A DNA stretch of 64,000 bases from Agromyces badenianii (lineage in GTDB: Bacteria; Actinomycetota; Actinomycetes; Actinomycetales; Microbacteriaceae), in contig NZ_CP028913.1 in NCBI RefSeq assembly GCF_003070885.1, forward strand, positions 1,922,001 through 1,986,000, read 5' to 3'. The position numbers were made by a program, and so were the translations under genes. The stretch's first letter is position 1. Each line of letters opens with the position of its first letter. This document shows positions 6,635-38,304 of the stretch, one piece after another. The notes under the pieces are model-generated. The model saw only the letters and a program-made list of their open reading frames with translations, searched no databases and had not been told where the DNA came from.

Positions 6635-9064
6635 TCAGCGGCGGCCGCGGTCGCCGCCGTCGCGGTCGCCGCCGCGACCGTCATCCTGACCGTCGTCACG
6701 GCGGCCCGGGCCTCCGTCGCCCGGCGACTGTCCGCCGTCGAACCCGGTGGCCTCGGCCTGCGGAGCGATCGGCGCGTCAACGGGCTCCTCGTACGTCGCG
6801 GGTGCCGCGGTCCGCGGCGCGACCGGTCCGGGACCGGCCACCGTGAACGGGTCGCCGCCGTACTTCGCCGCCGCGACCGACATGACCATCGGCCACATTC
6901 GGTGGCGGGCCGTCGCCGCCTGGCCGCTGCCGAACGAGATGCCGCGCTGGTTGGCATCGCCGGTCAGGCTCACGACGCCCGCAACGGTCGCGACCTTCGA
7001 GCTGGCACCCGCCATCCACGTGTCCTTGTTGCCGTCCGTCGTGCCGGTCTTGCCGATGAGCGGCACTCGAGGCTGCACCCCGCTGTTCGACGCGGTCGCC
7101 GTGCCGCTCGTCATCACGAGTTGCATCGCATAGTGCATGGCCGCGGCCACCTCGGGTGAGACCGCCGGGGTGCATGATGACGCCGGCACCGCGACGTCGT
7201 TGCCGGTGCGGTCGACGATGCGGTCGATCGCGATCGGCGTGCATGTGACGCCGTTGTTCGCGATGCCGGCGAATGCGACGGCGAGGCTGAGCGGGGCCAC
7301 CTCGTTGGTGCCGATCACCGTCGCCGGGCTCTGCAGCAACTCCGTGCCATCCGCTCGATGCATGCCGAACGCCTCTGCGGTCTTGCGGATGCCGCAGAGG
7401 TCGAGCTTCTTCGCCATGCCGATGAAGCCGGTGTTGATCGAACCGATGGTCGACTCGAGCGCCGTGTAGTTGGCGCCCGCCTCGTTGGCGTCGTTCTTCG
7501 GGCTCCACTTCTCGGCGTTCGTGTTCACGGGCCCGTTGCAGCTGTCTTGGAATGTTCCCCAGTTCGCCTTCGGCTTGGAGTCGACCCGTTCCGTCAGCGC
7601 GTGACCCTCATTCAGCCACTGCGCGAGGGTGAACACCTTGTAGGTCGACCCGGGCTGGAAGCCGCTCGAACCGCCATGCGTGTAATCGGTGTTGTAGTTG
7701 ATGCTCGTGAACTGCGGCCCGGTCTCGAGCACCTTGGGGTCCTGGCTGTACTGCTTGTTCTGTGCCATCGCGAGGACGCGACCGGTGCCCACCTGCACGC
7801 TCGAGATCACGCTGCCCACATCCCAGCCGGGGTAGGTCTGCGGCACGTTCTGGCCGATCGCATTCTCTGCAGTGATCTGCAGGTCGAGGTCGAGGGTCGT
7901 ATAGACGTCGTAGCCGCCGCGCCGGAAGTTCTGCATGCGCGTCTCCTCGTCTTCGCCGAACGTCGGGTCGGTCTGCAGGATGTTCTTGACGTAGTCGCAG
8001 AAGTACGCCGACCCGCCGGCGGTCTGGCATCCGGTGCTCGGTTCGGTGATGACCGGTTGCACGGGCGTCGCCATCGCCGCGTCGTACTCCTCCTGCGTGA
8101 TCTTCTTCTCCCCGAGCATGTGGCCGAGGATGTAGTTGCGGCGGTCCAGGTTTCTCGCATACCCGTTCGCCGCGCCGTTCGTCTCACTCTCGGGCTTGTC
8201 GAGCTGGAACTCCACCGGGTTGTTGACGATCGCCATGAGCGACGCCGCTTGAGCGAGCGTGAGATTCGCCGCCGACGTCGTGAAGTAGTAGTTGGCCGCC
8301 GCCTCGATGCCGTAGACCGTGCCGCCGAACCCGGCGATGTTCAGGTATCCGAGAAGGATGTCGCTCTTGGAATACCGCTTCTCGATGCCGATCGCGAGTC
8401 GCATCTCCTTCAGCTTCCGTTCGATCCCTGCGCTGCCGTCGGATTCGGTGGCCGATTCGTAGCACTTCACCTTCTCGGCCTCGACGAGGGCGCTGCGGTC
8501 GTCGAAGCTGAGCGCGGCCTTCTCATCGTCCGTGAGCCCTTCGAGGGCGGTCACACTCGCTTCGGCCTCGCACTCCTGCACGCGCACGTTCTTCACGTAC
8601 TGCTGCGCGATCGACGATCCGCCCTGCGTTTCGCCACCGGTCGCCGTCGTCACGGCCGCCCGAAGGGTGCCCTGCAGATCGACGCCGCCATGATCGTAGA
8701 ATCGCGGGTCTTCGCCGGCGATCGCGGCGTCTTTGACGTACTGGCTGATTGCATCCCAACCGACCTCGACCCGGTTCTGGTCGTAGAAGGAGGCGAGCAG
8801 CACCGGCGCACCGTCGCTGCCCGTCGCGTAGATGTTGCTCTTCTCGGAGAGCTCGTCGATCTCGAGATAGCCGGGGAGTTTCTCGAACATGCCGATGGTT
8901 CCGGATGCCGCGATGCCGACGGTCGCGAGTGCGGGTGTGACTCCTGCGACGACGAGCAGCGCCACGCCGACGCTTGCCGCGACGAGCCCGACGAAGCCGG
9001 CGACGACGCCGAGTGGCGTGCGCGTCTCCTGGAAGTCACGATTCCGCATGTTGCCAGGACCCAT
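6635..9064 (-). CDS. Class A penicillin-binding protein (transglycosylase/transpeptidase)
   Basis: An 809-residue bifunctional peptidoglycan synthase. A membrane anchor at about 18-50 is followed by the GT51 glycosyltransferase, with EDPRFYDHGG from residue 118 and SIAQQYVKN at 151-159. The transpeptidase follows, with the active-site STYK at 473-476, SIN at 542-544 and KTGT from 672. It polymerises lipid II and cross-links stem peptides on the outer membrane face. The C-terminus is a Pro/Ala linker ending in an Asp/Gly/Arg-rich tail of about 35 residues. ATG at 9064 is used; ATG at 9049 is an alternative. It is convergent with the heptad-repeat gene, with 42 bases between their stops. Confidence 0.92.
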   Translation of the reverse strand: MGPGNMRNRDFQETRTPLGVVAGFVGLVAASVGVALLVVAGVTPALATVGIAASGTIGMFEKLPGYLEIDELSEKSNIYATGSDGAPVLLASFYDQNRVEVGWDAISQYVKDAAIAGEDPRFYDHGGVDLQGTLRAAVTTATGGETQGGSSIAQQYVKNVRVQECEAEASVTALEGLTDDEKAALSFDDRSALVEAEKVKCYESATESDGSAGIERKLKEMRLAIGIEKRYSKSDILLGYLNIAGFGGTVYGIEAAANYYFTTSAANLTLAQAASLMAIVNNPVEFQLDKPESETNGAANGYARNLDRRNYILGHMLGEKKITQEEYDAAMATPVQPVITEPSTGCQTAGGSAYFCDYVKNILQTDPTFGEDEETRMQNFRRGGYDVYTTLDLDLQITAENAIGQNVPQTYPGWDVGSVISSVQVGTGRVLAMAQNKQYSQDPKVLETGPQFTSINYNTDYTHGGSSGFQPGSTYKVFTLAQWLNEGHALTERVDSKPKANWGTFQDSCNGPVNTNAEKWSPKNDANEAGANYTALESTIGSINTGFIGMAKKLDLCGIRKTAEAFGMHRADGTELLQSPATVIGTNEVAPLSLAVAFAGIANNGVTCTPIAIDRIVDRTGNDVAVPASSCTPAVSPEVAAAMHYAMQLVMTSGTATASNSGVQPRVPLIGKTGTTDGNKDTWMAGASSKVATVAGVVSLTGDANQRGISFGSGQAATARHRMWPMVMSVAAAKYGGDPFTVAGPGPVAPRTAAPATYEEPVDAPIAPQAEATGFDGGQSPGDGGPGRRDDGQDDGRGGDRDGGDRGRR

Positions 9065-9210
9065 GGCTCACCCAATTCCCTGTCGGCGTCTCGCGATGAC
9101 CAGACGAGCCCGTAGGGAGGCCCGAAAGGGGCCGACACTCAATGCAAGCGCAGCGCACGCCGGATGTCCAGTCGCACTCCCCCGCATCAGTGCGGGCGAG
9201 CAGAAACAAA

Positions 9211-9236
9211 AAGGCCAGGATGACCTGGCCTTTCTT
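9211..9236 (-). terminator. Terminator after the DUF2019 gene array
   Basis: A 9-bp stem, AAGGCCAGG (9211-9219) with CCTGGCCTT (9224-9232), closes a 4-base loop. Read leftwards it is followed by a T-rich stretch (TTTTTGTTT), so it should stop the leftward DUF2019 transcript. A second small hairpin, CCCGCA/TGCGGG at 9181-9196, sits just beyond. The rest of 9065-9302 holds nothing recognisable. Confidence 0.7.
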
Positions 9237-9302
9237 CACAAGAACCGGCTGAAGGGCGAAGCCTCGATCTGGAGCCGATCATGATCATCGCGAGACTCTG
9301 GT

Positions 9303-9650
9303 TCAATCGACGTCGAATTCGCCGTCTCTGAACAACTGCAACGTGACCTCCGCGGTGAGAGCGAGCCTCCCGCCCGTCGCGATCTCCTCGAGCACAGGTT
9401 CAGCGGCCACCGGATCCCACTCCAGCACATCGGTCGCGGCGGCAAGTCGTACCGCTTCCACGTCATCTCTCATGAGTGCGCCGATCGCTCGGCGACCCTC
9501 CTCGCTCTGGCGCAGGACGTCCCGGATGTCGTAGCTGCGGTGAAGGAGGATACCGGCGACCTCGGGGCGCGCAGCTCCTAGTCCCTCTTCAGGCCACCGC
9601 ACAAGAAGGTCGCGGTACCGCCGGACGAGCCTCGCCACATCCTCAGGCAT
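9303..9650 (-). CDS. DUF2019-like protein, diverged fourth copy
   Basis: A 115-residue protein homologous along its length to the three genes to its right (shared features: RYRDLLV, EEGRRAI, DDVEAVRLAAA, EWDPVAAEPVLEEIA), but with many substitutions, so it is the older member of the array. The fold is expected to be helical, HEAT-like. The three other copies have AAAAGGGGAGAG before the ATG; here that stretch is lost and the ATG at 9650 has no SD, so translation is probably coupled to the gene upstream. ATG at 9680 or 9677 would add about 10 residues. Function unknown; small tandem proteins of this kind are often immunity proteins, which is inference only. Confidence 0.68.
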   Translation of the reverse strand: MPEDVARLVRRYRDLLVRWPEEGLGAARPEVAGILLHRSYDIRDVLRQSEEGRRAIGALMRDDVEAVRLAAATDVLEWDPVAAEPVLEEIATGGRLALTAEVTLQLFRDGEFDVD

Positions 9651-9687
9651 CGGAACGTCGTCTTGGTTCGTGTGCATCATCCGTTGA

Positions 9688-10032
9688 CTACCAATCGAGG
9701 TTGAGATTTCCGTCCCTGTACTCGCGCAACGTCCACTTCGCGTCAAAGGCGACAAGTCCCGGGCCCGTCTCGATGTCCTCGAGCACGCGTTCAGCGGCCA
9801 CCGGATCCCACTGAAGGGTGTGGACCGCGGCTGCGAGTCGAACGGCGTCCACGTCATCGTCCATCAGTCCCGAGATGGCGCGGCGACCCTCATCGCTCTC
9901 ACGCAGAATCTTGTGGATGGCGTGATTCCGGTCGAACAGTTTGTTGGCCACGCTCGGCCGGGCAGACTCCATGCTGCGTTGCACAAGCAGGTCACGGTAC
10001 TGCGCGACCAACTCTTCAACATCCTGAGCCAT
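9688..10032 (-). CDS. DUF2019-like protein, tandem copy 3
   Basis: A 114-residue protein with the pattern of DUF2019: a helical N-terminus with QYRDLLVQ, then KLFDRNHAIHKILRE, DDDVDAVRLAAA and a C-terminal FDAKWTLREYRDG. It is nearly identical to the next two copies. An SD, AAAAGGGGAGAG, precedes the ATG at 10032. No signal peptide or membrane helix is present, so it is cytoplasmic. It is third in a leftward array of four, with 64-base spacers. Family assignment rests on motif recall. Confidence 0.75.
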   Translation of the reverse strand: MAQDVEELVAQYRDLLVQRSMESARPSVANKLFDRNHAIHKILRESDEGRRAISGLMDDDVDAVRLAAAVHTLQWDPVAAERVLEDIETGPGLVAFDAKWTLREYRDGNLNLDW

Positions 10033-10096
10033 CGAGCTCTCCCCTTTTCAACCTGATCATGACTGCGGAAGTTGGTTCGTGTGCATCATCCGTTGA

Positions 10097-10441
10097 CTAC
10101 CAATCGAGGTTGAGCTTTCCGGCCCGATACCGGCGCAACGCCCACTTCGCGTTGAAGCCGACAATCCCTGGGCCCGCTTCGATGTCCTCGAGCACGTGCT
10201 CAGCGGCCACCGGATCCCACTGAAGCGTGTGGACCGCTGCTGTGAGTCGAACGGCGTCCACGTCATCGTCCATCAGTCCCGAGATGGCGCGGCGACCCTC
10301 ATCGCTCTCACGCAGAATCTTGTGGATGGCGTGATTCCGGTCGAACAGTTTGTTGGCCACGCTCGGCCGGGCAGACTCCATGCTGCGTTGCACAAGCAGG
10401 TCACGGTACTGCGCGACCAACTCTTCAACATCCTGAGCCAT
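10097..10441 (-). CDS. DUF2019-like protein, tandem copy 2
   Basis: A 114-residue near-duplicate of the flanking copies. It differs mainly at the C-terminus, where FNAKWALRRYRAGKLNLDW replaces the FDAKWTLREYRDG form, and where T replaces A in VRLTAAVHTL. The same SD and the same 64-base spacer are present, so the whole 409-bp unit was copied, not just the gene. Codon choice is slightly less GC-biased than in the core genes. Confidence 0.75.
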   Translation of the reverse strand: MAQDVEELVAQYRDLLVQRSMESARPSVANKLFDRNHAIHKILRESDEGRRAISGLMDDDVDAVRLTAAVHTLQWDPVAAEHVLEDIEAGPGIVGFNAKWALRRYRAGKLNLDW

Positions 10442-10505
10442 CGAGCTCTCCCCTTTTCAACCTGATCATGACTGCGGAAGTTGGTTCGTGTGCATCATCC
10501 GTTGA

Positions 10506-10850
10506 CTACCAATCGAGGTCGAGCTTTCCGTCCCTGTACTCGCGCAACGTCCACTTCGCGTTGAAGCCGACAATCCCCGGGCCCGCTTCGATGTCCTCGA
10601 GCACGTGTTCAGCGGCCACCGGATCCCACTGAAGCGTGTGGACCGCGGCTGTGAGTCGAACGGCGTCCACGTCATCGTTCATCAGTCCCGAGATGGCGCG
10701 GCGACCCTCGTCGCTCTCACGCAGAATCTTGTGGATGGCGTGATTCCGGTCGAACAGTTTGTTGGCCACGCTCGGCCGGGCGAACTCCATACTGCGTTGC
10801 ACAAGTAGGTCACGGTACTGTGCGATCAACTCTTCGACATTCTCAGCCAT
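10506..10850 (-). CDS. DUF2019-like protein, tandem copy 1 (first in operon)
   Basis: A 114-residue member and the first to be transcribed. It begins MAENVEELIAQ where the others have MAQDVEELVAQ, and has FARPSV for SARPSV. The ATG at 10850 follows GGGGAGAG at close spacing; the longer in-frame ORF to 11012 has no SD and poor codon bias, so it is rejected. The upstream gap (10851-11078) should hold the array promoter but no clear hexamers were found. Role unknown; an antitoxin or immunity role would explain repeated duplication but no partner is proven. Confidence 0.75.
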   Translation of the reverse strand: MAENVEELIAQYRDLLVQRSMEFARPSVANKLFDRNHAIHKILRESDEGRRAISGLMNDDVDAVRLTAAVHTLQWDPVAAEHVLEDIEAGPGIVGFNAKWTLREYRDGKLDLDW

Positions 10851-30474: not shown

Positions 30475-32721
30475 CTATGGCCAGCGCGAGGGACCCCCGC
30501 GCGTCACTTCACGGGCGTCGGCGAGCCGCTCGAGCAGGTCGGCGACGTCGTCTGGACTGCGCACGCGGTTGGCCGCGAGCGACCGCCCCTGGCCGACCTT
30601 CACGCCGAGATCTTCGTTCTCGAGCGCTGCGAACGCGTCTTCGTCGGTGACGTCGTCGCCGACGTAGACCACGGCACTGGCACCTGCATGCTGGCGGAGC
30701 CGGGTGAGCGCCTCGCCCTTGTCGCTCGGACGCACCGAGAACTCGAGCACGCCCTTGCCGGTGCGCACGGTGAGCTCGGGGATCTCGGACTCGACTCGCT
30801 CGCGGGCGACGCGCTGGAGCTCGGCGGCGGTCTCGGCGACGACCTTCCGGGTGTGCAGCGCGAGTCCGGCGGGCTTCCACTCCACCCATGCGCCCTCGGC
30901 ACCCGAGGCGACCTCCTCGAGGATGGCGGTGAGATGCTCGAGGGCCGCGAGCTCTGCGTCGCGCAGGTCGATCGTGACCCCGCCGGCGTCGAGCTGCAGC
31001 TCCACGCCGTGGGATCCGCTGAGCAGCGCGCCCTGCGGGGGGTCGGCGACCTCGCGGAGACTCTCGAGGGCACGCCCGGAGACGATCGCGACGCGGGTGT
31101 CGTCGAGCGCCGCGAGTCGCTCGATCGCGGCGCGTGCGCGCTTCGTCGCCCGCGCGTCCTGGGGCCGGTCGACGAGCGGAGCGAGGGTGCCGTCGAAGTC
31201 GAGGGCGACGAGCAGCCGATCGGTGTCGGCGATGCGGAGGATCGCCGTTTCGAGCCCCTCGGGAACCCCGGAGGCGATGATGCCGGCGCCGGTCAGCGTC
31301 TTCAGGAACGTCGCAGACCACTTCGCCACGTCGTTCTCGCGCACGCGCTTGCGCAGGGCCCGCATGCGTCGGGCCCGCTCCTTGCGCGGCATCCGTGCGG
31401 CCTCGACCATCGCGTCCTTCAAGCCGTCGATGTCGTGCGGGTTCACGAGGATGGCCTGCCGGAGCTCGTCGGATGCCCCGGTGAACTCGCTGAGCACGAG
31501 CACGCCGTCGTCGTCGAAGCTGCACGCGACGAACTCCTTAGCGACGAGGTTCATGCCGTCGCGGAGCGCCGTCACGAGCATGACGTCGGCGGCGAGGTAG
31601 AGCGCGACCATCTCCTCCCGCGGGTAACCGTGGTGGAGGTAGGCGATCGCCTGGTGGCCGAGGGTGGAGTGGTCGCCGTTCAGGCGCCCCACCATGAGCT
31701 CGATCTCGTCGCGAAGCTGCCGGTACGTCTCCACGCGTTCGCGCGACGGGCTCGCGACCTGCACGAGGGTGACGTCTTCGACCGAGAGCCGGCCGTCGCG
31801 CAGCAGCTCGCCGAAGGCCTTCAGCCGGTGCCGGATGCCCTTCGTGTAGTCGAGCCGGTCGACGCCGAGCATGATCGTCTTCGGGTTGCCGAGGCTCTCG
31901 CGGATCTCGTGTGCGCGGGCCTGCACCTCGGGCCGCCGTGCGATCTCCTCGAACCCGGCCGCGTCGATCGAGATGGGGAACTGGCGGGCGACGACGTGCC
32001 GCACATTGCCGTCGGGGCCTGGCACGTCGATGACGCTGCCTCGGGTGGCGTACCCGAAGAGGCGGCGCACGGCGCGCGTGAAGTTGCCGGCGTCGGCGGC
32101 GCGCTGGAAGCCGATGACATCGGCGCCGAGCAGTCCGTCGATGACCTGGCGCCGCCACGGCAGTTGCGAGTAGATGCCGTATGCCGGGAACGGGATGTGG
32201 TTGAAGAACCCGATCACGAGGTCGGGGCGCTTCTCGCGCAGCATCCGGGGCACCAACTGCAGCTGGTAGTCCTGCACCCAGACGACCGCGCCGTCGGAGG
32301 CCGCACGCGCGGCGGCCTCGGCGAAGCGCCGGTTGACCCGCACGTACGCGTCCCACCATTCGCGGTGGAACGACGGCGGGGCGATGACGTCGTGGTACAG
32401 CGGCCAGAGGGTGTCGTTCGAGAAGCCCTCGTAGTAGTCCTCGAGCTCCGTTGCCGACAGCGGCACCGGGATGATGTTGATGCCGTCGTACTCGAACGGG
32501 TCGAACTCGCGGTCGGCGACGCCGGCCCAGCCGATCCAGGCGCCGTCGGCGGCGCGCATGACCGGTTCGAGCGCGGTGACGAGGCCGCCCGGCGAGCTCT
32601 TCCAACCGGTTTCGCCGTCGGGGCCCTGCTCGTAGTCGACCGGCAGGCGGTTGGAGACCACGATCATGTCGTAGGCGGCGTCGATGTAGAGATCGTCGCG
32701 TTTCGGTTCATGGGCGTTCAT
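30475..32721 (-). CDS. Fused trehalose-6-phosphate synthase / phosphatase
   Basis: A 748-residue fusion. Residues about 18-480 form a GT20 glycosyltransferase (OtsA) with SNRLP at 23-27, HIPFP at 175-179, DRLDYTKG at 288-295 and RDGMNLVAKE at 387-396. Residues about 500-740 form a HAD phosphatase (OtsB) with DFDGT at 508-512 and a C-terminal GDDVTDED. It should make trehalose-6-phosphate from UDP-glucose and glucose-6-phosphate and dephosphorylate it in one chain. ATG at 32721 follows GAGGAGGG at long spacing. The fused layout is known in some actinobacteria and yeasts. Confidence 0.93.
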   Translation of the reverse strand: MNAHEPKRDDLYIDAAYDMIVVSNRLPVDYEQGPDGETGWKSSPGGLVTALEPVMRAADGAWIGWAGVADREFDPFEYDGINIIPVPLSATELEDYYEGFSNDTLWPLYHDVIAPPSFHREWWDAYVRVNRRFAEAAARAASDGAVVWVQDYQLQLVPRMLREKRPDLVIGFFNHIPFPAYGIYSQLPWRRQVIDGLLGADVIGFQRAADAGNFTRAVRRLFGYATRGSVIDVPGPDGNVRHVVARQFPISIDAAGFEEIARRPEVQARAHEIRESLGNPKTIMLGVDRLDYTKGIRHRLKAFGELLRDGRLSVEDVTLVQVASPSRERVETYRQLRDEIELMVGRLNGDHSTLGHQAIAYLHHGYPREEMVALYLAADVMLVTALRDGMNLVAKEFVACSFDDDGVLVLSEFTGASDELRQAILVNPHDIDGLKDAMVEAARMPRKERARRMRALRKRVRENDVAKWSATFLKTLTGAGIIASGVPEGLETAILRIADTDRLLVALDFDGTLAPLVDRPQDARATKRARAAIERLAALDDTRVAIVSGRALESLREVADPPQGALLSGSHGVELQLDAGGVTIDLRDAELAALEHLTAILEEVASGAEGAWVEWKPAGLALHTRKVVAETAAELQRVARERVESEIPELTVRTGKGVLEFSVRPSDKGEALTRLRQHAGASAVVYVGDDVTDEDAFAALENEDLGVKVGQGRSLAANRVRSPDDVADLLERLADAREVTRGGPSRWP

Positions 32722-32823: not shown

Positions 32824-34767
32824 TCAGCCGAGCGCTGCCGCCGCGAACCCGATCGAGCGCACGCCGCGGCGCCGGCCGATCACGAGGCCCGTGCCGAGCA
32901 CGCCGGCGAGGCCGAACACGGCGAGTGCCCCGGCCGCCAACGCCACAGCTCCCCCGGAGGCGCCCGCGACGATGAGCTGCATGCCCTGCACGGCCCAGGT
33001 GAGCGGCAGGAACGGACTGATGGCCTGGAACGGACCGCTCAGCACCTCGATCGGGTAGAGCCCGCCCGACGCGGTGAGCTGCAGTGCGACGAGCACGAGC
33101 GAGACGAGGAGTCCCGCCCGCCCGAGCCACACGGTGAGGAAGGCGTGCAGCGCGGTGAAGACGAGGGCGAGCAGCGCCGCGAACGCGAGGGTCTGCGGCA
33201 GCAGCGTCCAGGCGACGCCCATGGCGCCGTGCAGGAGCAGCACCACCGCGACGGCCTGGGCGAGGGCGAGGAGGCCGGCGCGAGCGAGCGTGCGCCACAC
33301 GAGACCGCCGGTCGAGGCGGTGCTGCGAAGGGCCTCCCGGCCGAACGGACGGAACACGAGGAAGAGCGCCATCGCGCCGAGCCAGAGCCCGATCGGCAGG
33401 AACAGCATGCCGATGACCTCGCCGGTTCCGGCGATCTCGTGATCGCGGGTGGCCTGGACCGTCACCGGTTCGGCGACGACCTCTGCGGTCGCCGCCCCGT
33501 CGATGTCGGTGAGCGCCTTCGCGCTCTCCGCCCCGGAGGCGAGCCCGCTTGCGAGGGTGTTCGCGCCGCCGGCGAGCTGCGTGGCGCCGGCCGCGGCATC
33601 CGATGCCCCGCCCTGGAGCGCGCCGAGCCCGCCCGCGAGCTCGTCGAGCCCGGAGGCGAGGCCGTTCGCGCCGTCGCGGATGCCGCCGGAGCCGGCCGCC
33701 ACCTGCGCGGCGCCGCCCGAGAGCTGCGAGATGCCGGCCTGGATGCCGTCGATGCCGCCGCGGGTCTCCGCCGCGAGCTTCGTCCCTCCGGCGGCGAACT
33801 GCGACACGCCCTGCTCGACCTGGCCGACGTAGCCGAGGTATTCGGCCAGCTCGGGGAACTGTTCGAGCAGGCCCGGATTCTGCTCGACGTAGCCGTTCAA
33901 CGCGTCGACGCTGTTCGTGAGTTCGCCCGATGCCCCGGCGATCATGCCGACGTACTGGTCCCAGCCGACAGACAGCCCGTCGAGCCCGGCGGCACCCTGG
34001 TCGAGGCCCGCGAGCCCGCTCGCGATGCCGTCGACGCCGTGCGTGTACTGCGTGACGCCGGCGGCGTACGCGTGCGCGCCGCTCGCGGCGTCCGTCGCCC
34101 CCGACGCCGCCCCGGCGACGCCGTTCGACAGCGTGCCGAGACCGCCCGCGAGCGAACCGACTCCGGTCGAGAGCTGGGTCGCACCGCCGGCAGCCTCGCC
34201 GAGCGCGCCGCCCATCGTCGCGAGGTTCGTGTAGAAGCCCTCGAGGTACTGTGCGGTCAGCTCACGGCCGAAGGTCGCCGACATGGCGTCGCCGACCGAT
34301 TGGGCCACCGAGCCCGCGAGGTATCCGTGCGCGTCGTCGGTGCGGATGTCGAGGTTCGCCTGCTGAGGGCTCCGGCCCGAGAGCGAGGTCACCGACTCCG
34401 AGAAGTCCTCGGGGATGGTGAGCACCGCGTAGGCGTCGCCCGAGGCGAGGAGCCCGGCCGCCTCCTCGTCGTTGGAGATCTTCCATTGGAAGCCGGCCGT
34501 GTCGGGGTCGGTCAGCTCGGTCACGAGCTGGCGACCGGCGAGCACCGGCTGATCGGTGCCGTCGGGCAGTGTCATGGTGACCATCTCGTCGTTGTTGACG
34601 ACGACGGCCGGGATCTGCTCGAGGTTGTCGCCGGCACCGCCGAGGGCGCCGGAGACGAGTCCGGAGACGGCGAGCGGCACGGCGATGACGGCGGCGACCA
34701 GCACGCCGTAGCGCACGCGGCGCTGGGCGGGGGTCGAGCCGAAGAGCCGGGAGAGTCGAGTGCTCAT
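32824..34767 (-). CDS. YhgE/Pip-family membrane protein
   Basis: A 647-residue protein. An N-terminal membrane helix (about 20-42) is followed by an extracytoplasmic domain, a long stretch of L-x-x-G heptads (about 185-420), then about six membrane helices resembling an ABC-2 permease. YhgE/Pip proteins are known as a phage infection protein in lactococci and as ESX-associated or export-linked proteins; the transport role is not proven. Its ATG overlaps the MMPL stop by 4 bases (ATGA), so the two are coupled. YhgE genes in actinobacteria often sit beside a separate ABC ATPase gene; here that partner seems to survive only as the MMPL C-terminal domain. Confidence 0.88.
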   Translation of the reverse strand: MSTRLSRLFGSTPAQRRVRYGVLVAAVIAVPLAVSGLVSGALGGAGDNLEQIPAVVVNNDEMVTMTLPDGTDQPVLAGRQLVTELTDPDTAGFQWKISNDEEAAGLLASGDAYAVLTIPEDFSESVTSLSGRSPQQANLDIRTDDAHGYLAGSVAQSVGDAMSATFGRELTAQYLEGFYTNLATMGGALGEAAGGATQLSTGVGSLAGGLGTLSNGVAGAASGATDAASGAHAYAAGVTQYTHGVDGIASGLAGLDQGAAGLDGLSVGWDQYVGMIAGASGELTNSVDALNGYVEQNPGLLEQFPELAEYLGYVGQVEQGVSQFAAGGTKLAAETRGGIDGIQAGISQLSGGAAQVAAGSGGIRDGANGLASGLDELAGGLGALQGGASDAAAGATQLAGGANTLASGLASGAESAKALTDIDGAATAEVVAEPVTVQATRDHEIAGTGEVIGMLFLPIGLWLGAMALFLVFRPFGREALRSTASTGGLVWRTLARAGLLALAQAVAVVLLLHGAMGVAWTLLPQTLAFAALLALVFTALHAFLTVWLGRAGLLVSLVLVALQLTASGGLYPIEVLSGPFQAISPFLPLTWAVQGMQLIVAGASGGAVALAAGALAVFGLAGVLGTGLVIGRRRGVRSIGFAAAALG

Positions 34768-37649
34768 CGGTGGGCCTCCTGGAGGTGCGAGACGGGTTCG
34801 AGGGTACGGATGCCGCGTGCGGCGAGTTCGGGCGCCGACGCGGGTGACACGGCCGAGCGGCCGAGCCCGACGATGAGCGTCACCTGTGCGGGCACGAGCA
34901 CGGCGAGCGCACGCCACAGTGCGCCGCTGGCCGAGCCGGGATCGTCGTCGAGGTCGATCACGAGGGCCTTGGGACGCTCGGCGAGCGCCGCGGCGACCGC
35001 CACGAGCGTGCGGGCCTCGACGCCGAGCGCGGCGAGCGGGGTGTCGGCGGTGAAGCGCGGCCCGTCGGGGCCGTGGCCCGCGGCATCCGCCGCTCGCGAC
35101 GCCCACGTGCGAACGAGCGTGTTCGACGGCGAGAGCCGGTACCACGGGCGGATGGCGTCGAGCCGGCCCGCGATGAGCTCGCCGACGGTGCCGCCCGGCC
35201 CGGCAGCGGCATGGACGTCGGCGATCGCGACGCCGCGCATGACCGCACCGGCTCCCGTGGGCAGCGGCGAGCCGAGCACGGCGAGCCGGCCGTCGACCGG
35301 GTCGAGACGTCCCGCGAGGGTCGCGGCGACGACGCGCCGATCGACGGGATCGCCCTGCACGACGAGCACGCCGCCCGTCGGCACCTCGACCGAGAGCGGG
35401 CCGATCGGGCGTTCGGGCAGGCCGAACACCGCGGCGTCGGCGTTCACTGCTGCGGGGCGTGAAGCGGCCCAGGCCTGCTGGTCGAGGTGGGCGCGCAACC
35501 CCTCTCCCTCGATGTCGACGTTCGGCAGCGCCTTCGCGAGCCACTTCGGCAGCCACCAGGCCGCATTTCCGGCGAGCGCCATCGCGGCGGGCACGAGCGT
35601 CATGCGCACGAGGAACGCGTCGAAGGCGACGCCCACGGCGAGCGCGAACGCGATGCCCTTGATCACCCCGGCGCCCTCGGGCACGAAGGCGAAGAAGACG
35701 AAGAACATGATGAGTGCGGCGGCGGTGACGACGCGGGCGGCGTGCTGGAACCCGTGCACGACGGCCTTGCGCGGCTCCTTCGTCTTGACGAACTCCTCGC
35801 GCATGCCCGAGACGAGGAACACCTCGTAGTCCATGGCGAGGCCGAACAGCACGGCCATGAGCAGGATGGGCAGGAAGCTCAGGATCGGTCCGGGCTCGAC
35901 GTGCAGCAGATCGGCGAACCAGCCCCACTGGAAGATCGCGACGGTGACGCCGATGGCGCCGAAGGCCGAGAGCAGGAACCCGAGGGCGGCCTTGATCGGC
36001 ACGAACACCGATCGGAACACCATGAGCAGGAGCACGATCGAGAGGCCGACGACGATGAGCGCGAACGGGATGAGCGCGTCGGCGAGACGGTTCGAGATGT
36101 CGATCGCCACGGCCGTGTAGCCGGTCACCGCGATCGGCGTGCCGAGCTCGGCGCTGATCGAGGGTTCGAGCTCGCGGATGTTCTCGACGAGCACCTTGGT
36201 CTCTGGGGCATCCGGTGCGCTGTCGGGGATCACCTGGATGATCGCCGTGTCGGCCGTCTCGTTGGGCAGGCCGTCGCCGACGAAGGCGACGTCGTCGAGG
36301 TCGCCGATGCGGTCGCCGATGGCGTCGAGGTCGTCGAAGATGTCGGTGGTCTGGGTGATGTCGACGGTGACGATCAGCGGCCCGTTGTAGCCGGGGCCGA
36401 AGCCGTTCTCGATCATCTCGTACGCCTCGCGCTGGCTGGATCCCTCGGATCCCGACCCGTTCGGCAGGTTGAGGTCGAGGCTCGCGGCCGGCACCGCGGC
36501 GGCTCCGAGGAGCCCCACCACGAGGACGACGAACACGACGGGCGCCTTCAGCACCAGGTCGACCCAGCGCCGGCCCATGGTGCGCTTGCCGCCGTCGTCG
36601 GCGGCGTTGGCTCGGCGGTGCGCGCGGCTGCCGGGCTTCGGGATGAGCCGGCGCCCGAAGACGCCGAGCAGTGCGGGCAGCAGGGTGACGGCCCCCGCCA
36701 CCGCGATGAACACGGCGAACGCGGCGCCCACGCCCATGACGCTGAGGAACGGGATGCCGACGACCAGCAGGCCGAGGAGCGCGATGATCACGGTCAGCCC
36801 GGCGAACACCACGGCGCCGCCGGCGGTCGCGACGGCCTCTGCGGCCGACTCCTCGGGATCCTGCCCGCGGGCCAGCTGCGTCCGGTGCCGCGACAGGATG
36901 AAGAGCGCGTAGTCGATGCCGACCGCGAGCCCGATCATGACCGCGAGCATCGGGGCCGTCGACGACACCGTGGTGAACGCCGCGACGATCGAGATGCCGC
37001 CGAACGCCGCACCGACGCCGACGAGCGCGGTGAGCAACGGCATGCCCGCCGAGAGCAGCGAGCCGAACGTGATGATGAGCACGACGGCGGCGAACAGCAC
37101 GCCGAATACCTCGGTGATCGTCAGGCCGAAGCTCGTCTCCTGGAAGACGTCGCCGCCGAACGCCACGACGAGGCCTGCATCACCTGCGAGCTCGCCCGTC
37201 GCGGTCACGGCGTCGAGGGATTCCGCGGTGACGTCGGTGACCGGGCCGTCGAACTGCACCTGCACGTAGGCGGTTCGGCCGTCGCCCGAGATCTGGTCGC
37301 CGGCGTACTCGTCGAAGGGCCCGAGCACGCTCGCGACACCGTCGACCTGCTCGATCTCGGCCTCCATCGCCTCGATCGCCGCGCGGAAGGATTCGGACTC
37401 GACGGATGCCCCGTCGGGGGCCTCGACGACGGCCTTCGCCGAAGCGCCCGCCGTCTGCGGGAACACCGCGGCGAGCTGGTCGATCGCGGTCTGCGACTCG
37501 GTGCCGGGGATCGCGAAGGAATCCTGCAGCTGGCCGCCGAGGCCGAGGCCGGCGCCGAGCAGCGCGCCGAGGGCGAGCGCCCACGCGACGATGACGTACC
37601 AGGCGCGGCGGAAGGCGAAACGACCGATGCGGTGAAGGAGGAGTGCCAT
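34764..37649 (-). CDS. MMPL-family RND transporter with C-terminal degenerate ABC-ATPase-like domain
   Basis: A 961-residue protein. Residues 1 to about 717 form a typical MMPL/RND unit: an N-terminal helix, a porter domain, five helices, a second porter domain and six more helices, with GIDYALFILSRHR and GLAMDYEVFLVSGMREE as family hallmarks (the Asp in the latter serves proton coupling in relatives). The last 244 residues, from about 718, resemble an ABC ATPase: ...LAGRLDPVDGRLAVLG after the P-loop position, and VAAALAERPKALVIDLDD at the Walker B position. The Walker A position reads QGDPVDRRVV (765-774), without the lysine, so it should not hydrolyse ATP. ATG at 37649, 8 bases after the TetR stop. 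Confidence 0.88.
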   Translation of the reverse strand: MALLLHRIGRFAFRRAWYVIVAWALALGALLGAGLGLGGQLQDSFAIPGTESQTAIDQLAAVFPQTAGASAKAVVEAPDGASVESESFRAAIEAMEAEIEQVDGVASVLGPFDEYAGDQISGDGRTAYVQVQFDGPVTDVTAESLDAVTATGELAGDAGLVVAFGGDVFQETSFGLTITEVFGVLFAAVVLIITFGSLLSAGMPLLTALVGVGAAFGGISIVAAFTTVSSTAPMLAVMIGLAVGIDYALFILSRHRTQLARGQDPEESAAEAVATAGGAVVFAGLTVIIALLGLLVVGIPFLSVMGVGAAFAVFIAVAGAVTLLPALLGVFGRRLIPKPGSRAHRRANAADDGGKRTMGRRWVDLVLKAPVVFVVLVVGLLGAAAVPAASLDLNLPNGSGSEGSSQREAYEMIENGFGPGYNGPLIVTVDITQTTDIFDDLDAIGDRIGDLDDVAFVGDGLPNETADTAIIQVIPDSAPDAPETKVLVENIRELEPSISAELGTPIAVTGYTAVAIDISNRLADALIPFALIVVGLSIVLLLMVFRSVFVPIKAALGFLLSAFGAIGVTVAIFQWGWFADLLHVEPGPILSFLPILLMAVLFGLAMDYEVFLVSGMREEFVKTKEPRKAVVHGFQHAARVVTAAALIMFFVFFAFVPEGAGVIKGIAFALAVGVAFDAFLVRMTLVPAAMALAGNAAWWLPKWLAKALPNVDIEGEGLRAHLDQQAWAASRPAAVNADAAVFGLPERPIGPLSVEVPTGGVLVVQGDPVDRRVVAATLAGRLDPVDGRLAVLGSPLPTGAGAVMRGVAIADVHAAAGPGGTVGELIAGRLDAIRPWYRLSPSNTLVRTWASRAADAAGHGPDGPRFTADTPLAALGVEARTLVAVAAALAERPKALVIDLDDDPGSASGALWRALAVLVPAQVTLIVGLGRSAVSPASAPELAARGIRTLEPVSHLQEAHR

Positions 37650-37657
37650 GTTCGGAC

Positions 37658-38257
37658 CTATCGGGTGGGGCGGCTGTCGGCCGTCAGCAGGAGTTCGGAG
37701 AGCACGGAGATGAGGGCCTCGCGCACGTCGCCGTCGGCGACCTTCTGCTCGTCGTCGAGGAAGGTGGCACCGGCGACGAGCGTGTACGTCGCGCCGGCGA
37801 GCGCGACGCCGAAGCGCATCTGCTCGGCGAGCGGGGCGTCGTCGTCGCAGATCGAGTCGGCGAGTCCCCGGATGGCGGTGTTGGCGCGCTCGATCACCGG
37901 CAGCCCGCGCAGCGACTGGCCCTGGTTCACGAAGGTGTGCACCGCGAGCCGGTTGCCGAGCAGGAAGTCGACGAAGCTCTCGATGAAGGTCGCGCGCGCG
38001 GCCCCGGTGCGGCCGCCCGCCACGAAGTCGCCGAGCAGCGTCTCGAGCAGGTCGATGGCGGGGCCGATGGCGGCCTCGAGCAGCGCCTCCTTGGAGGCGT
38101 AGTGGTAGAGCACGCTCGACTTCGAGTAGCCGGCGTGGTCGGCGATCTGCTGCAGTGAACTCGCGGCGAAGCCGACGGTCGCGAACTGCTCGAGGGCGGC
38201 CTGGCGCAGTTCGTCGCTGGCGCGCACGCGGGACGGCATGGATGCTTCGGTGGGCAT
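37658..38257 (-). CDS. TetR-family regulator of the MMPL-YhgE operon
   Basis: A 199-residue TetR regulator. The HTH is SLQQIADHAGYSKSSVLYHY at about 39-58 in a standard N-terminal domain. It is the first gene of the unit with MMPL and YhgE. Two operator-like sequences lie right upstream (38272-38304), so it should repress its own operon. ATG at 38257 starts close to a GGAAGC with very short spacing; ATG at 38239 would lose 6 residues and is a fair alternative. Confidence 0.9.
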   Translation of the reverse strand: MPTEASMPSRVRASDELRQAALEQFATVGFAASSLQQIADHAGYSKSSVLYHYASKEALLEAAIGPAIDLLETLLGDFVAGGRTGAARATFIESFVDFLLGNRLAVHTFVNQGQSLRGLPVIERANTAIRGLADSICDDDAPLAEQMRFGVALAGATYTLVAGATFLDDEQKVADGDVREALISVLSELLLTADSRPTR

Positions 38258-38271
38258 GCTTCCACGGTAAT

Positions 38272-38304
38272 TGACCGATCGGTCAGCTTCTGCACGATCG
38301 GTCA
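38272..38304. promoter_or_regulatory. Twin TetR operators
   Basis: A perfect 14-bp palindrome TGACCGATCGGTCA (38272-38285) is followed 19 bases on by an imperfect second copy, TGCACGATCGGTCA (38291-38304). They lie just upstream of the TetR start. The sequence is of the TGACCGNNCGGTCA type often bound by TetR dimers. The start is 14 bases away, so the sites probably overlap the promoter. Confidence 0.65.

Follow-up and report, generated by a model that had tools for sequence, protein, structure and literature searches.

RND pumps and ABC transporters count as two distinct superfamilies, each with its own energy source, and an ABC-2-type membrane domain normally sits on a nucleotide-binding domain (NBD). 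YhgE/Pip is a widespread family, required by phages infecting some Firmicutes. The excerpted text of PMC4999554 describes the YhgE/PIP domain of Firmicutes as being without known function and mentions no NBD partner there. For the RND-type pump MmpL3, excerpts of PMC10171966 mention Tyr-Asp pairs in the proton relay, and like the protein described here it joins an RND-type pump to a cytoplasmic tail, which is said to take part in protein interactions. The excerpted open-licence literature that we covered, including PMC10171966, PMC4999554 and PMC12584985, gives no account of an MMPL-ABC fusion or of a pseudo-NBD that partners YhgE.

The window, a 64,000-nucleotide stretch of the Agromyces badenianii genome (one contig, 3.05 Mb), carries an MMPL/RND transporter with a C-terminal pseudo-NBD. 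Its tail differs from the ABC NBDs of PF00005 (MlaF, FtsE, ABCA NBDs) in being fused to an RND-type pump and in lacking the Walker A lysine, the signature and the catalytic Glu. Closest in layout are MMPL-ABC_tran proteins of the Aeromicrobium type, represented by database entries, which share its domain order and linker and have YhgE adjacent in the single locus examined (L211), but whose tails nearly all keep PF00005 and, in 82 of 85, an intact Walker A. The protein is not MmpL3 as defined by equivalog NF052608, scoring 203 bits where 1400 are required, and its tail has a predicted ABC fold. Each half belongs to a known family; the fusion around a dying NBD is, as far as tested, an undescribed variant.

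The fused gene and its neighbors

Fused gene. The 961-aa gene lies where it was originally predicted (34764..37649), on the minus strand, and is defined by its ORF, its translation and relatives with the same fusion. Residues 1-710 (35520..37649, minus) form the MMPL core, matched in two stretches by Pfam PF03176 (3e-88, 296.4 bits, cut-off 20.5). Its Asp-Tyr pairs 246-247 and 607-608, which we take to be the equivalents of the MmpL3 Tyr-Asp pairs, are invariant in a 54-row alignment. Further MMPL matches occur elsewhere in the host genome (L002, L003). A conserved linker helix beginning VDIEGEGLR (residues 711-730; 35460..35519, minus) follows, identified by invariant alignment columns and by a helix at 3-19 of the predicted structure model; one of the two locus-search patterns lies in the linker, so its invariance is partly due to selection of the loci. 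The linker alignment holds 56 of the 61 named loci and the window, those cut or running on having been dropped (L137, L148, L150, L152, L155). Among the matches listed, the closest named proteins to the fused protein are from Agromyces.

Downstream genes. The YhgE/Pip permease gene (32824..34767, minus, 647 aa) overlaps, by its start codon, the stop codon of the preceding fused gene (ATGA). Its product belongs to the YhgE/Pip proteins (phage infection protein; EsaA/YueB relatives) by TIGR03062 (146.8 bits, cut-off 102.2) and TIGR03061 (111.6 bits, cut-off 96.15), and has an ABC-2 membrane domain (PF12698 ABC2_membrane_3, 3.8e-13). Downstream of it is a trehalose-6-phosphate synthase/phosphatase fusion (30475-32721, minus), for which no evidence of operon membership was found.

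Upstream regulator. A gene for a 199-aa TetR-family regulator (37658..38257, minus; PF00440, 5.8e-13) ends 8 bases ahead of the MMPL start. A TetR homologue stands beside the fused gene in all 39 loci L036-L074 and in 60 of the 61 named loci, the one without it (L156) starting at a contig end; these two sets have at least five loci in common. At L075-L086, where the tail is short, anything TetR-like is matched weakly or not at all. The palindrome TGACCGATCGGTCA (38272..38285, minus), conserved before tetR, is likely the TetR operator. With at most one mismatch TGACCNNNNGGTCA precedes tetR in 37 of the 39 loci L036-L074 and in 58 of the 60 named loci with tetR, where chance would place such a site in about three of 100 stretches of equal length, assuming even base use. 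Many relatives have a second copy of the palindrome about 19 bases away. Of the three-part TetR-MMPL/pseudo-ABC-YhgE machine that had been proposed, the operon is supported.

Identity of the tail

Single-sequence searches missed any ABC likeness: Pfam found no ABC domain in the full fused protein or in the tail searched alone, and a PDB search with the single tail sequence gave no match, so the resemblance lies below single-sequence detection. Profiles recovered it. With a profile of 18 fused tails the best 60 of 133 matched chains were all ABC proteins (top E 5e-4), and with one of 41 rows (32 fused tails and nine standalone relatives) so were the best 60 of 453, headed by ABCA3 at 4e-16; the underlying tail alignments, A1 and A2, include 17 and 31 of the fetched fused loci. 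The predicted structure of the tail is a full ABC NBD fold at high confidence, with a RecA-like core and a helical subdomain, over residues 731-955 (34785..35459, minus); the fold comparison re-aligned Foldseek's top 1000 chains and showed 50, a scope within which other folds may have been missed. Profile homology and the predicted structure together show the tail to be an ABC NBD fold homologous to ABC ATPases. The ABC-like tail of the original prediction, for which HHpred or structure prediction had been the proposed check, therefore stands, with its fold beginning near residue 731 and not at 718 as its limits of 718-961 implied.

Spread and age of the fusion

The tail is matched in 162 of 299 Microbacteriaceae genomes and 58 of 85 genera, the matches listed being mostly MMPL-sized frames with some standalone ones, and the weakest perhaps other ABC proteins. 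Each of the 51 fused loci retrieved from further genomes has the MMPL-tail fusion, and by name its hosts include Agromyces, Cryobacterium, Leifsonia, Glaciibacter, Galbitalea, Clavibacter and Amnibacterium, with Rathayibacter added by protein name; the named-locus set and the set of 51 overlap by at least five loci. Of ten further fused loci, nine belong to eight other families and the tenth to Agromyces. Such recurrence means that the fusion is not a sequencing error. The proposed search of relatives for the same fusion was thus productive, and it contradicts the idea that the ATPase was swallowed here, in the window genome: the fusion is ancient and common to many related bacteria.

At greater distance, the fused protein of L211 and its relatives (Aeromicrobium by name among the closest matches listed) have a tail that Pfam recognizes as ABC_tran (PF00005, 4.5e-15 in L211), as it does for nearly all fused proteins of this type. 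A tail tree, built without six of the 13 chosen Aeromicrobium-type proteins, which the linker pattern overlooked, and without L063 (empty tail) and L089 (a contig-edge piece of a fused gene), needs two changes between fused and standalone, with two decayed standalone rows, L209 and L210, placed among the fused tails with starred support. Because of that nesting a single fusion event, read from the tree, is likely but falls short of proof. Some Microbacteriaceae (L075, L077-L086) have a shorter fused tail, without the segment that connects the Walker A region to the Walker B region. A Walker A-like GKS is retained in L078, L081 and L291. Frames that seem to unite MMPL, tail and YhgE in one protein were dropped as fusion evidence, P0111 and P0206 because by eye they look frameshifted, and with them the frame of L150.

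YhgE and its partners

In each of the 51 fused loci L036-L086 the fused gene has YhgE as its neighbor, in the same orientation; YhgE is also next door in nine of the 10 further fused loci (the tenth stops at a contig edge) and in 57 of the 61 named ones (the remaining four are incomplete). It likewise adjoins standalone partners, in eight of eight loci (L087, L088, L090-L095) and in all 10 further ones. Conversely, a class sample of 60 genomes gave 13 above-cut-off YhgE genes in 12 of them, the window genome's own two included, and each of the 13 has an NBD-like ORF upstream, two fused and 11 standalone. The expectation that actinobacterial YhgE genes usually have a separate ABC ATPase partner held as to an NBD-like partner, but the standalone partners are mostly degenerate, with a Walker A in nine of 29. 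A second pair in the host genome, a standalone one, lies outside the window on the plus strand, an NBD-like gene (L035, 7337-8446) with YhgE (8419-10617); the NBD-like protein reads GPAGSGRTS at Walker A (Lys to Arg) and matches PF00005 weakly, at 1.2e-8.

We also searched 60 Microbacteriaceae genomes, finding 74 YhgE places in 44 of them, of which 14 were already in the set, one at a contig edge was left out and 59 were examined. Upstream of 52 of these 59 is an NBD-like ORF of the family: 23 fused, five standalone with a P-loop-like motif and 24 standalone without. The last are a third partner class, standalone pseudo-NBDs with a ETEQRPTVLGLIASGRM-like Walker A site and a SPDRHGGDP-like Walker B site (e.g. 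L244, L247, L253, L255, L260, L264, L267, L271), which match ABC ATPases by profile at best at 5.4e-6. For the other seven the profile search recognized no partner. They include L276, L280 and L294, whose script label ‘standalone K’ we rejected because the matched ORFs resemble ordinary ABC proteins: L276 and L280 cover two YhgE genes that adjoin each other in a single genome, preceded by an ORF whose P-loop looks intact (for L280 the script picked up the neighboring YhgE), and in L294 a 945-residue ORF precedes YhgE.

A YhgE tree of 98 rows, made by a quick method with SH-aLRT as sole support measure, sorts the three partner classes in two changes, the minimum, as low as in none of 200 shuffles. 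YhgE genes with fused partners fall on one side of a branch (SH-aLRT 87), and those with decayed partners on one side of another (100). Its fused rows are the window, 26 of the 51 loci L036-L086, nine of the 10 loci L192-L201, L211 and five of the further 23; 30 standalone and 26 decayed rows complete it, with L184 and L204 left out.

Loss of ATPase motifs

All three motifs named in the original prediction are present: QGDPVDRRVV at 765-774 (35328..35357, minus), a Walker A remnant, LAGRLDPVDGRLAVLG at 778-793 and ALVIDLDD at 895-902 (34944..34967, minus), a Walker B-like strand (185-189 of the model) that has the Asp and no Glu following it. Where G-x4-G-K-[ST] would stand the window tail reads GDPVDRRV, a Walker A without lysine as had been claimed. 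The loop lacks the inner glycines and, counted by eye, falls one residue short of its counterpart in those fused relatives where it is intact. At the Lys-Ser/Thr position Arg771 is conserved in 37 of the 39 long fused tails, Arg772 in 34.

Outside the Aeromicrobium type, two of 61 fused tails retain Walker A, as does one of 23 in a further fused set (L291); among fused Aeromicrobium-type proteins 82 of 85 do. Only the lysine class of the script was used for fused tails, its arginine class being unreliable there. By pattern, GR[ST] replaces GK[ST] in 15 of 29 standalone relatives. A signature followed by a Walker B with catalytic Glu was found in none of 61 fused tails (window included), 29 standalone and 85 Aeromicrobium-type relatives, against 29 of 30 control ABC ATPases of the host genome (the best-scoring 30 of 95 Pfam matches), with whole frames scanned for the controls and tails alone for the YhgE-partner family. 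That Walker A occurs in all 30 controls is by construction, since frames were admitted just when it was present. Alone, a five-letter signature-like pattern occurs in 17 of 61 fused, four of 29 standalone and six of 85 Aeromicrobium-type relatives, and a Walker B with Asp-Glu in one, none and five, respectively. L063 and L089 are absent from these counts as from the tail tree. Given this difference from the controls, the canonical ATPase cycle looks to be gone in the entire YhgE-partner family, and nucleotide binding to have been lost afterwards, in the window's lineage, whose tail presumably no longer binds ATP. Being swallowed by the MMPL protein was not in itself enough to inactivate the domain, as the fused Aeromicrobium-type proteins keep Walker A; the accompanying suggestion that the fold has a structural rather than an energetic use is plausible.

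What survives is under selection. All 11 Agromyces comparisons show purifying selection on the tail (dN/dS 0.18-0.42), which is less constrained than the MMPL part (0.10-0.23); the tail's ratio is higher by a factor of 1.2 to 2.8, so the constraint is moderate.

Possible roles of the tail

On balance we favor the reading that the tail is a former NBD of YhgE which was fused to MMPL, lost nucleotide binding and now docks the two to each other. The tail would originally have been the NBD of the ABC-2-type permease YhgE, joined in an ancestor to the C-terminus of the adjacent MMPL pump; in the window's lineage the fused NBD would later have lost nucleotide binding. It would serve as a cytoplasmic docking module keeping MMPL pump and YhgE in one complex, placed below YhgE in the position of a functional NBD, with MMPL supplying the energy (proton motive force), a part it can play since its Asp-Tyr pairs are kept. 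We infer physical contact between tail and YhgE and a flow of energy from MMPL to YhgE; the transported substrate is possibly a lipid or hydrophobic compound. Supporting docking, the tail has the predicted fold and the profile homology of an ABC NBD, YhgE has an ABC-2 membrane domain, Aeromicrobium-type fused relatives still carry PF00005 and Walker A, YhgE is a constant neighbor whose tree is sorted by partner class, and, by analogy, the MmpL3 C-terminal domain is reported in excerpts of PMC10171966 to act in protein-protein interaction. Against it, genes that share an operon can be inherited together although their products never touch, the tail is under moderate constraint, docking would have to tolerate the loss in the shortened tails (L075, L077-L086), seven of 59 YhgE genes are without a recognized partner, and L209 and L210 keep the fused tails from forming one group in the tail tree. 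A stronger version, to which we give distinctly less credence, has the proton-driven movements of MMPL relayed through the dead NBD to YhgE, a chimeric RND-ABC machine whose motor was exchanged; the Aeromicrobium type would then be an intermediate that may still bind nucleotide.

The conserved arginines bear on an alternative that we consider unlikely though worth weighing, in which the tail still binds a ligand, nucleotide or other, in a modified pocket around Arg771/Arg772 and as a sensor gates MMPL or YhgE. Their conservation indicates that the old P-loop site is maintained and not random, and GR[ST] at Walker A in standalone relatives fits as well; yet the loop is one residue short of the P-loop of fused relatives and misses its inner glycines, no signature plus catalytic Glu is left in the tail, and the arginines may be structural. 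Somewhat less probable still is that the tail is an oligomerization or localization domain of the MMPL pump itself, its link to YhgE merely historical. The MmpL3 C-terminal domain has a role in localization as well as protein interaction according to excerpts of PMC10171966, but YhgE adjoins every fused gene with enough flanking DNA and its tree tracks partner class.

A functionless, decaying passenger is the least probable of these. Walker A, signature and catalytic Glu are all gone, the tail changes more quickly than the MMPL part and some relatives are without part of it, as decay would have it, but its dN/dS is well below 1 in every comparison, a complete fold is predicted with high confidence, and tail matches extend over 58 of 85 genera (some standalone, the weakest maybe other ABC proteins).

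Database names, mostly ‘MMPL family transporter’ or ‘RND superfamily putative drug exporter’ among the matches listed, omit the tail. What they pass over is an RND-ABC hybrid conserved over many genera, with living stages from an intact Walker A to none, through which YhgE/Pip gains a partner resembling an NBD and a transport setting open to testing. The tail probably once served the neighboring YhgE as its motor domain, and it may now couple the MMPL pump with YhgE.
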